A DNA stretch of 64,000 nt from Amphibalanus amphitrite (taxonomy: Eukaryota > Arthropoda > Thecostraca > Balanomorpha > Balanidae): positions 434,001 to 498,000 of the forward strand of contig NW_024881540.1 of the NCBI RefSeq assembly GCF_019059575.1, in the 5' to 3' direction. The notes beneath the pieces were generated by a model. That model had not been told where the DNA came from and searched no databases. It saw only the letters and a list, made by a program, of their open reading frames with translations. A program made the position numbers and the translations under genes. The first letter of the stretch is position 1. Every line of letters starts with the position of its first letter. Positions 1 through 43,883 of this stretch are shown piece by piece.

Positions 1-151
1 GGTCAGAGCCCCTCAGGTCACGAAGCTGGGCAAAGGGTATCATATGGCATATCATTCGATTCGGAAGGTCTTCCCGAGTCCATTGGTGGCTTTCCCGACT
101 CTCTAGCTCCATTTGATTAGGAGTTATTGACGAAAAACTCGTACTACCCTA

Positions 152-173
152 GTGACGTCATAAATGACGTCAC
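152..173. promoter_or_regulatory. Palindromic pair of CRE-like sites
   Basis: A 22-bp inverted repeat with two 10-base arms around AA contains TGACGTCA twice, the consensus for CREB/ATF bZIP dimers. It is duplicated at about 42,972-42,993. Binding or promoter activity is not shown; it lies inside element X, so it may be a transposon-borne site. Confidence 0.35.
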
Positions 174-864
174 GCAAGGTTAACAATGCAAAAGTGAAGC
201 ATTGGACTTTGCAAGGAGTGCATGAAATCACGCGATACCATGTACGTGAGATAGTTTTAGATCATTCCCGGCGCCAAAATAACAGTTTTATATTTCCCCA
301 TTGACTTATAACAGTGATGTCACGTGACCGACCTGACCTCATGTAACCTTAAAAGCAGAACCAAGCAGCCTTTTTCACCCTCGCGCTTATAGGAAAGAGG
401 GTTGGATGAACCCCTTTTTCACTTTTTTCAGATGACTCAGACTTCAATTGAAATTTCAGTAACCCGTGATGTCACTAGCCAGCTTTTCCACGCCATTTGT
501 AAGCTCCCCTCCCGAAATCACTATTCGAAACCGTTATCGTGACAGTAAAATAAATACATTTATAGAAAGAACACCTTCTTAATTTTTTGCATACTTCTTA
601 ACAATGAGCCAAATATTTTTTTTTTAAAGAAATAAAAATGCAAAAAAAATTGGTCCCAAAGTCCAAAAAATACAAATGAAAGAAAACTCGATATGTCATA
701 TATCAAAAACAGCGTATTTTTCGAAATTTCAAAAATACATATTAATCTCTGTTTGATTGCAATTTCAATGTTATATAACATTTGGTATTTGAATAATCCG
801 TCTTAGAGTTACAGCCCGCCAAACTTAGCGCTGCAAAGCAAGATCCAAAAAATGTTATACACGG

Positions 865-1365
865 GTGCAACGAGTAGGAACGGTGCAACGAGTTACCAAA
901 GCCACAAGATCAACATTTCTTATCTATCTTCATTTTAGGATAATTAACAGAATTTATGCAACCAACAAATATTTGTCAAACATTGAAGTTATCCAGAACG
1001 ATAAGTGCTCATTTTGTGACAACACCACGGAAACAATAGTTCACTTATTCTGGCAATGCCGAATAACACAAATATTTATCAAAGAAGTTCTATCACACTT
1101 GAAAAATAGATTCAATATTACCTTGCATATTAACAGTGTAAATTGGTTTTTGCTAACAGGTTTGAATAGTATAGAGGTGATGATTATCACACTTATTAAA
1201 AAATGCATACATAAATCACGCCTAAAATCAACAATACCGTCTTTGCAGATGATGTCCTACAGCCTTAAATTTGAAGTGAAAAATGAGTTCATCATAGCGA
1301 AGCGAAATAATAATCTTACAGAGTTTGAAAAGAGATGGGGTAATCTTACAAAAATACTTAAATAA
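865..1365 (+). pseudogene. C-terminal fragment of LINE ORF2 with zinc-binding knuckle
   Basis: An open stretch of about 166 codons. After the first 15 or so residues it matches the segment downstream of the reverse transcriptase domain in L1/Tx1-type ORF2 proteins. A basic FRIINRIYATN segment leads into CSFC, then ETIVHLFWQC, the CxxC...ExxxHxFxxC pattern of the zf-RVT family. The tail (FEKRWGNL) is also typical of these proteins. Reverse transcriptase and endonuclease domains are absent because the copy is 5' truncated, so it cannot act alone. The first ATG is fortuitous. Confidence 0.75.
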
Positions 1366-1425
1366 AAATACATTCCAATTTAGTTGATTTGCAACGCGCC
1401 TGGTACAGAGGAGGAGATTGTCACA

Positions 1426-40199: not shown

Positions 40200-40696
40200 A
40201 GGGACTATCCCACCTTCTAAAATGTTGTTAAAACCAGTTAAATTGTGCCCGACTTTATAGATTGGATGACCAGGAACACGGTTCTGGCATTTATCTTTCA
40301 TTAAACATCTTAGGCTTCCCATATTCCAAACACAAACTTTCAAATATGTGACGTCACAGCCCAAAATCACCTCCTTCCCCAGGCCACATTACTGTCATAA
40401 AGCTGATTCTTTTTACTCTGTAGGCACCACAACAAAGTTCAGACCAAGTTTTAAGCAATTTTTCAACGAACAAACCCATTTAAATCAGAATGACTAAGCG
40501 AGGTGACGTCACACTAACGGTCGCTCCATGTTGAAGATAGGGCCTTGTACAAGGCCCATTTTCAAATGAAGGGAACGAATTTCTTCAACACCAAGAGGCC
40601 GCGGGGGTTGCAACCTAGATAGATAGTGGTTTCTGAACCTCGCCGCAAACTTGGCTATCTCAACTCAAACCCCATGTTAAAGGTGGGATAGTCCCT
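40200..40696. mobile_element. TTAA MITE in LINE, right copy
   Basis: Mirror of 3,309-3,805, identical length, TTAA flanks kept. Confidence 0.9.
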
Positions 40697-41378
40697 TTAA
40701 GTCTATGATCATCTCGGAATATTCCCAACAACGCGAAAACCACCGCGCGTCTGAGGATTTCTTGTATCCTGGGAATTTTTAGAGCAATAAGCAGAGCAGA
40801 ATGATGTGCGTATTTTGACAGACCAAGGGCAGCTTTGACGCAGCGAGACTGGACGCTGTCCAGGGTATCAACATCAGTTGAGCGGAGAGGAACCGTATGA
40901 CATCCAAACATAAGGGCAGGGACAACCACAGTTTTCCACAGGAAAACTTTGTCAGCAGGTGAGAGACATTCACTAAGCATACCGGTAGGAGTCAGTCCAT
41001 AGAAAGCTCCACGAGCTCGACTGGCGCGTGCCGTACATGATGTGAGCCGTCAAGGTCCGCCGACAACACAACACCGAGATGTTCTGTCACTGCACGTATG
41101 TACAGCAAGCTGTTGTCCAGATAAGTGCCATACAGGTAGCACAGACAAAAGTTCTGCACCAAATACGATACAGTGACTTTTCGTCTTCGCAGGATCCACA
41201 TGAACAAATTCCAACCTCCAAAAACCTGCAAATTCGCTGACTAGTTTCAAGAGTTTACCTAGGTCTCCCGCATTGGTGGAGAGCAACATGAGGTCATCTG
41301 CATAGCAAACGGCGGGAACATGGTAGCCAAACATAAATGCTCCACATAAGCTGACATCAAGTGTGCTAATAAGTGGCT

Positions 41379-41517
41379 TATATATATATATATATATATA
41401 TATATATATATATATATATATATATATATATATATATATATATATATATATATATATATATATATATATATATATATATATATATATATATATATATATA
41501 TATATATATCATATATT
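41379..41517. repeat. (AT)n microsatellite, long allele
   Basis: About 139 bp against about 37 bp at 2,590-2,626. It splits the LINE reverse transcriptase frame between the RQGAILSP and YADD segments. Confidence 0.92.
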
Positions 41518-43883
41518 TAGGAAGTGATACACATTTTAAAATACACATTTGCAAACACCGGTGATAAAATGGCTCCCTGTCTTGTCCCTCGTTTGATAAG
41601 GAAGCACATCGATCTACGCCCAGCATAAGTTACAAAACTATATAAAAAAAGCTATAAAGCCGAAGATTTGCTCAAATCAAACTGATAATCGCATCTGCAG
41701 TTCGCAAAAAGTATCGAACACGTGTTTGCGGATATGGGAAGGTTACAAGATGTGAGGGTTTGATATTGAGTTGAGTTATTTCATTGATTGCAAAGAAACT
41801 TGAATTAAAATTAGTTGATTATTTCTTAACCTAGATAAAAAATTACATTTTTCCCAGCAACGCCCCCTCACTAATTTAAAGTTACATTGTGAAATATTGT
41901 TATGACAAATTAATGCGAAGGTTTTCATTGAGCAGTGTGTGCAAAGGAAGCGCATTCTCAGCTGCGCAGGAAAATGTTAAAATCACTGACAAGACCTGAG
42001 TCAAAGCTATTCGAATATAAGTCCGACAATGAGGCAACCTAAAAAAATGTGTATAGGACACGTCATTGCTGACGCTGAAGCTGACTCGCCCGTAACATAA
42101 AATCCAGGCCTCCAATTAACACCGGGGGCATTCCACGATAGATCGTACCACTTTTTTCCAATTTGACACCCTCATCTCTCGGAATTTGACGAGAATTGGT
42201 CTCAGGGCTCAATCTCAATCAGGGGCTCTGAATCCACCTGTAACAATTTTAGGCTTATCAGATAAGTATTTTTTTAGTTATGGTGTATAACATTTTTTGG
42301 ATCTTGCTTTGCAGCGCTAAGTTTGGCGGGCTGTAACTCTAAGACGGATTATTCAAATACCAAATGTTATATAACATTGAAATTGCAATCAAACAGAGAT
42401 TAATATGTATTTTTGAAATTTCGAAAAATACGCTGTTTTTGATATATGACATATCGAGTTTTCTTTCATTTGTATTTTTTGGACTTTGGGACCAATTTTT
42501 TTTGCATTTTTATTTCTTTAAAAAAAAAATATTTGGCTCATTGTTAAGAAGTATGCAAAAAATTAAGAAGGTGTTCTTTCTATAAATGTATTTATTTTAC
42601 TGTCACGATAACGGTTTCGAATAGTGATTTCGGGAGGGGAGCTTACAAATGGCGTGGAAAAGCTGGCTAGTGACATCACGGGTTACTGAAATTTCAATTG
42701 AAGTCTGAGTCATCTGAAAAAAGTGAAAAAGGGGTTCATCCAACCCTCTTTCCTATAAGCGCGAGGGTGAAAAAGGCTGCTTGGTTCTGCTTTTAAGGTT
42801 ACATGAGGTCAGGTCGGTCACGTGACATCACTGTTATAAGTCAATGGGGAAATATAAAACTGTTATTTTGGCGCCGGGAATGATCTAAAACTATCTCACG
42901 TACATGGTATCGCGTGATTTCATGCACTCCTTGCAAAGTCCAATGCTTCACTTTTGCATTGTTAACCTTGCGTGACGTCATTTATGACGTCACTAGGGTA
43001 GTACGAGTTTTTCGTCAATAACTCCTAATCAAATGGAGCTAGAGAGTCGGGAAAGCCACCAATGGACTCGGGAAGACCTTCCGAATCGAATGATATGCCA
43101 TATGATACCCTTTGCCCAGCTTCGTGACCTGAGGGGCTCTGACCTGACCTTGACCCGAGGTCAACTACTTAAGTTGACCTCACCCTAGCAAAAAATATAC
43201 CATTCGATGTACCTGAGCTAGGCGAACACAATGATGCCAAAATCGCGGCTCTACGGCCATTCTTGCGAAGTTATTTACTAAAAACCGAACCCGTAACTTC
43301 AGTCACTTGACCTGACCTCAGACGCTACAGGTTAACTTGAGACCTTAAAATCGGGTACCAATCGCTGAGACTTGTAACGGCACACACGCTCGTTTTTTCC
43401 GCGAGTCTCTAGCTCTATTAGAAGCGAAACGGCGTGCTGGGGTCGTATCAACCCCTCCGAAACCCATTTTGTTTGCGGGAAAATGAGGAACTGATAGAAA
43501 GAACACCTTTCTAATTTTTTGCATGTCGATTTGCAATAACATGAAGTTTACTTTGAAAAAATAAAAATGTGAAAAATTTTGGTCCCAAAAGTCAATAGAG
43601 GCAAATGAAAAAAGATTAAGTTTTTTTTGCTCAACAATGAAAATTTTTCTTTGGAATTTTTAAAAAGTAATATTAATTTTTGATTCATCGCAAGCTTAGT
43701 GTTGTTAACTGTTTGTTGGCTGCTCAACCCATTTTTAAGGTATAGGCCATCAAACTCACCGTTACAAACCGAAGTTAAAAAAATGTAATGCAATATAACT
43801 CAAAAACTTTTGATCTGAGAAGTCTGATATTTTGCCAGGCGTCTTTGGGACCTATGATTACCCCTAGGACCGATTTTCATTAA

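Follow-up and report, generated by a model that had tools for sequence, protein, structure and literature searches.

Palindromic DNA has been described both in sequencing reads and on chromosomes. In nanopore reads of genomic DNA, fold-backs made up about 0.55 to 0.6% in the data described in PMC12870357, and in the K562 samples of that study, simple repeats (mostly A and AC) were enriched in the unmapped sequence between the segments of a read. The single PacBio HiFi genomic data set of that study contained virtually no fold-backs, which counts against a fold-back join. In the amplified tardigrade DNA described in PMC13265396, it was often the case that over one-third of the mitochondrial reads were palindromic. 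On the chromosomal side, the yeast experiments described in PMC10622511 and PMC10164571 indicate that fold-back priming at inverted repeats near breaks, of the kind considered below, gives inverted duplications.

The window, which is the whole stretch of 64,000 nucleotides that we analyzed, contains a palindrome that can be compared with each of these systems. Like the fold-back long reads described in PMC12870357, it is an inverted copy of one locus with an abrupt turn and a dinucleotide repeat at the turn; the amplification palindromic reads described in PMC13265396 also share the inverted copy of the same locus and the abrupt turn. Unlike the single fold-back reads in those two reports, its distal arms are two alleles or copies, and it is known from assembled sequence. 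Its arms are more than 99.9% identical, as described for P6 of the human Y chromosome (PMC3723533), and they are about 20 kb long, as described for W.P1 of willow (PMC7023750), whose arms are 19,550 and 20,071 bp. However, it differs from the sex-chromosome palindromes as presented in these two sources: we recognized no gene among the 92 left-arm reading frames scanned with Pfam, and there is no nonpalindromic spacer at its axis. Finally, a hairpin-forming inverted repeat lies beside the turn, as is described for duplications that form by fold-back priming (PMC10622511, PMC10164571) or by template switching (PMC10766183).

Extent and identity of the inverted arms

When we compared the window to itself with BLAST, we found an inverted repeat from 1 to 43,144. 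A pairwise alignment of the arms gave the same picture: bases 1 to 22,007 are the reverse complement of bases 22,008 to 43,144, with 17 mismatches in 21,018 gap-free columns. Two near-identical inverted arms are present in the sequence, as an earlier note on this DNA had stated (the first 22 kb mirroring the next 21 kb). The mirror-image sequence is certainly there, and given its length and identity, it would not be expected to arise by chance. The BLAST blocks were 1-862 with 42283-43144 (100%), 1809-2626 with 41481-42298 (100%), and a self-palindrome at 2588-41416 (99.70%).

The left arm (1 to 22007, forward strand) carries an extra LINE and pairs with the right arm (22008 to 43144), which is its reverse complement and is read on the reverse strand. 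The pairing is exact over the first 862 bases, counted from base 1 of the window. Because it runs unbroken to that base, the window must begin inside the left arm, whose left boundary lies farther out. Position 43144, which the earlier note gave as the end of the palindrome, is just the mirror of the cut in the left arm and is no demonstrated boundary. Similarly, as the left end falls at the window edge, the arm length of 21 to 22 kb in that note is a lower bound.

Differences between the arms

The arms differ by one LINE insertion, a large change in the length of an AT tract, five substitutions, the lengths of some runs, and a cluster of small indels near the axis. Indels and single bases do differ, which the earlier note had compared with sister haplotypes or very young duplicates, but the differences do not simply follow a haplotype pattern.

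First, 946 bp (863 to 1808, forward strand) are present only in the left arm and resemble the 3' end of a 5'-truncated non-LTR retrotransposon. The protein encoded by the insert has a zf-RVT domain (Pfam, E = 1.7e-6; 29.1 bits versus a cut-off of 27.5), and a protein search found 10 relatives for it. The insert has a CA-rich 3' part and a poly-A run (1786 to 1814), whose last six bases are the start of the target copy. The insert is bounded by a 16-bp target-site duplication (forward strand, 847 to 862, with the 3' copy at 1809 to 1824). In the right arm, there is a single target copy (the empty site, 42283 to 42298), and this arm matches the joined left flanks exactly. Taken together, the domain, the poly-A, and the target-site duplication suggest that 863 to 1808 is a LINE insertion that is absent from the right arm. 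Since one site is LINE-filled and the other is LINE-empty, the distal arms are two different DNA copies; these may be alleles or paralogues. We thus find filled and empty states of a mobile element across the arms, which is the pattern of an allelic join but is also expected in a palindrome that received a later insertion.

Second, the AT tract of 36 bp at 2591 to 2626 has a counterpart of 138 bp at 41379 to 41516. Both this length change and the LINE difference look biological in origin.

Third, the arms are separated by just five clean substitutions, at 5449, 6060, 9703, 12921, and 15761. We set aside 12 of the 17 mismatches: six are in AT tracts, and the other six are at run edges or beside indels (14338, at the edge of a C run; four within 20541 to 20547, at an offset pair of indels; and 21185, beside an indel). 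Across the 20,818 aligned columns that lie outside the AT tracts and the LINE insert, the divergence is 0.024% (95% confidence interval, 0.008 to 0.056%). If the true divergence were 0.1%, five or fewer substitutions would have a probability of 4e-5. The alleles of outbred animals often diverge by 0.5 to 2%. The low divergence speaks against the arms being alleles, unless heterozygosity is low, and it is the main evidence against a join of two alleles. As for run lengths, six of the seven G/C runs of at least 8 differ in length between the arms, versus one of the five A/T runs of at least 8.

The earlier note also reported that the minisatellites match between the arms. This is true of all four tandem arrays that we picked, which are identical to the letter in both arms: a GC-rich minisatellite with a 20/41-bp unit (4730 to 4992, forward strand), a minisatellite with a 15-bp unit (11170 to 11617, forward strand, identical at 32384 to 32831), and the arrays at 13033 to 13074 and 17008 to 17066. 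It is not true of the arrays near the axis (20028 to 20376 and 21170 to 21220), which differ between the arms by small indels. The four identical arrays count against a join of outbred alleles.

Fourth, small indels of at most 3 bases, counted away from AT tracts and long runs, are concentrated around the axis. Eighteen of the 21 are within 5.7 kb of it (16301 to 27700). The zone limit of 16.3 kb was picked post hoc, but a uniform spread is rejected by a test that is independent of that limit (Kolmogorov-Smirnov, p = 2e-7). The excess is error-like, symmetrical about the axis, and about 11 kb wide, which is like one long read. The right arm is the shorter one for 13 of the 18 near-axis indels, which is not significant (p = 0.10). 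Over the central 5,537 compared columns, there are indels and five set-aside mismatches but no clean substitutions (p = 0.16 at the distal rate). By eye, the four copies of the element X, which is described below, show seven differences that are confined to a single copy: six deletions and one insertion, with five of the seven in the right arm. At 23238, the right arm is missing an AG that is present in the left arm, and an outside relative (P0019) agrees with the left-arm frame. Overall, the near-axis indels look like errors left uncorrected in long reads and not like the outcome of evolution, and their clustering leans toward an artefact or toward a junction with poor coverage.

The turning point and its possible origins

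The axis of the palindrome is at about 22,007, inside a 152-bp tract of alternating A and T (21932 to 22083); this (AT)n tract is its own reverse complement. An element of 1.24 kb, itself an inverted repeat, lies on either side of the tract, and the two copies mirror each other. On the left (20692 to 21931, forward strand), the element consists of an AT tract, X (20762 to 21243), a 245-bp spacer, and X' (21489 to 21931). Its mirror copy (22084 to 23318, reverse strand) consists of X (22084 to 22524), the spacer, X' (22770 to 23252), and an AT tract. X and X' are inverted copies that have about 440 bp in common and are separated by the 245-bp spacer. Fixed differences, identical in both arms, distinguish the inner from the outer copies of X: an indel of 6 bases with changes next to it, one run length, and a 35-base end that is restricted to the outer copies. 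The remaining AT tracts of at least 30 bp are at two sites per arm, all inside the palindrome, and the right flank (43145 to 64000) has no AT tract of that length.

The reading frame of X (MSEDVNGYVDETLPGNIG...) has two relatives among 5.8 billion proteins, at 97% and 73% identity, and has no match in Pfam. The 73% relative also runs into an AT-like repeat (the protein reads IYIYI), and AT tracts may recur at this spot in X.

We think that the palindrome probably represents a head-to-head join of two alleles, which a fold-back at the AT tract produced during sequencing or assembly (a probability of roughly 0.6). We rate such a join somewhat above a true palindrome of the chromosome. One allele of the locus would carry the LINE and the other would lack it; the turn lies at a long self-complementary AT tract that is preceded by a hairpin-prone inverted repeat. 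Either a read would fold back there, or the end of a sequence would overlap its own reverse complement, and the assembly path would thus run along one allele and return along the other. The zone of low accuracy around the axis would be the stretch that rests on that read or on a few reads. As judged from the sequence, both the location of the axis in a self-complementary AT tract and the filled and empty LINE sites, which are as in heterozygous alleles, point to a join. We infer that the arms are allelic and that the axis is not crossed by any genomic molecule. If so, then an inverted duplication of at least 21 kb in this assembly is false, and the assembly should be searched for other turns of this kind at AT tracts before claims are made about copy number or structure.

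The main alternative is that this is a real and very young chromosomal palindrome, which we consider possible but not probable. The earlier note had offered a real palindrome and a head-to-head joining of haplotypes as its two options, and both survive: the near-axis indels lean toward an artefact or a thinly covered junction, and the low divergence leans toward a palindrome, unless heterozygosity is low. The divergence of 0.024% and the identity of all four of the picked arrays are easier to reconcile with a young duplicate, or with gene conversion, than with the alleles of an outbred animal. The AT tract that contains the axis also adjoins a natural inverted repeat (X/X'), which is the type of substrate that primes fold-back in yeast. 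A broken or single-stranded end might have folded back on the AT tract and been filled in, and the hairpin-capped end might then have been copied; we propose this route only tentatively. It is similarly conceivable, at less than even odds, that one arm received the LINE at a later time or that gene conversion between the arms maintains their likeness. If X had simply folded back on X', the turn would be in the spacer between them, and it is not there but in the AT tract.

A real palindrome could show such indels as well. In the data described in PMC7229812, a true inverted duplication that is read by nanopore also loses bases near its axis. Inverted duplicates are error-prone when read by nanopore, as presented in that source, so the indel gradient is compatible with a real palindrome, and the cluster at the axis can be an effect of this kind. 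On the other hand, we would expect well-covered spanning reads to normally yield a clean consensus at the axis. Also, no host gene was recognized among 92 open reading frames from the arm, unlike in the gene-bearing palindromes of sex chromosomes. It is somewhat doubtful that we are looking at a genuine palindrome that has arms of at least 21 kb, that was born by (AT)n fold-back beside the 1.24-kb element, and that is so recent that its arms differ only by some five substitutions, the length of one AT tract, and a single LINE insertion. With the same reservation, such a palindrome might be the natural counterpart, in a repeat-rich animal-like genome, of the fold-back inverted duplications of yeast and cancer. 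If it is real, then a very young large palindrome has preserved its self-complementary AT turning point, and the fold-back model of palindrome birth would be testable in a natural genome. As a separate observation, a young LINE copy with a matching empty site is a clean presence/absence marker. This LINE-filled/LINE-empty marker could decide between a join and a palindrome with few reads.

It is very improbable that the palindrome is a laboratory product of one molecule and hence of one allele, either as a nanopore read of template and then complement or as an inverted chimera from whole-genome amplification. The central 5,537 columns, which lack clean substitutions, are what one molecule that was read twice could give, but the distal arms differ in the LINE insertion and in the length of an AT tract (36 versus 138 bp). 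The LINE difference rules out that the whole 43 kb is one molecule read twice. This explanation is tenable only for the central part, where it amounts to the seed of the allelic join that we favor.

Two other explanations were set aside. The Pfam results for the open reading frames of the arm and the flank lend no support to a gene-bearing sex-chromosome palindrome, as they gave retrotransposon parts and weak matches only. Chance similarity and ancient duplicated transposons were rejected as sources of the arms: among the first 60 minus-strand and the first 40 plus-strand self-matches listed by BLAST, the others are under 1 kb and about 67 to 94% alike, except for AT tracts and one stretch of 74 bp at 97%, which also has a mirror copy.

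Genes, repeats, and the right flank

The window has a G+C content of 45.7% and looks like eukaryotic DNA, with minisatellites and retrotransposon fragments. We scanned 92 open reading frames from the left arm (at least 62 amino acids) and 90 from the flank (at least 66 amino acids) against Pfam, after dropping low-complexity frames with an entropy cut. In the left arm, zf-RVT was above the cut-off in one frame and RVT_1 was below the cut-off in another. Across the arm and the flank, there were four weak matches in all (E = 0.0035 to 0.0068), including DUF3433 (E = 0.0035) and LAG1-DNAbind (E = 0.0068) in the left arm. The absence of a recognized host gene refers to Pfam matches in the 92 left-arm frames, from which intron-split genes and frames of under 62 amino acids can escape. 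No RNA family reached its gathering score in the window, and ARAGORN found no tRNA there.

Fragments of a reverse transcriptase are present at 2599 to 3342 (RVT_1, E = 2.8e-4, below the cut-off), and an AT tract interrupts the sequence upstream. The second reverse transcriptase piece in this region has eight relatives in the protein search. Scans of GTDB and IMG/VR gave no confirmed relative of the reverse transcriptase piece, and neither did a pattern scan of IMG/VR yield a confirmed relative, in collections that may not include the genome of the window itself. Of the 20 protein relatives that were found (8 for this piece, 10 for the LINE insert, and 2 for X), 18 were labelled ena, 1 jgi, and 1 lgn.

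A dispersed repeat links the arms to the flank: 47637 to 48546, in the unique flank, aligns with 9234 to 10146 over about 925 bp at 93.6% identity, and the mirror of the arm copy is at 33855 to 34765. Elsewhere in the right flank, at 58830 to 59280, a GTCC-rich array comes after a long tract of TC. By eye, there are many AGGTCA/TGACCT motifs at 43145 to 44250, in the flank beside the arm, and also in the outermost part of the arm.
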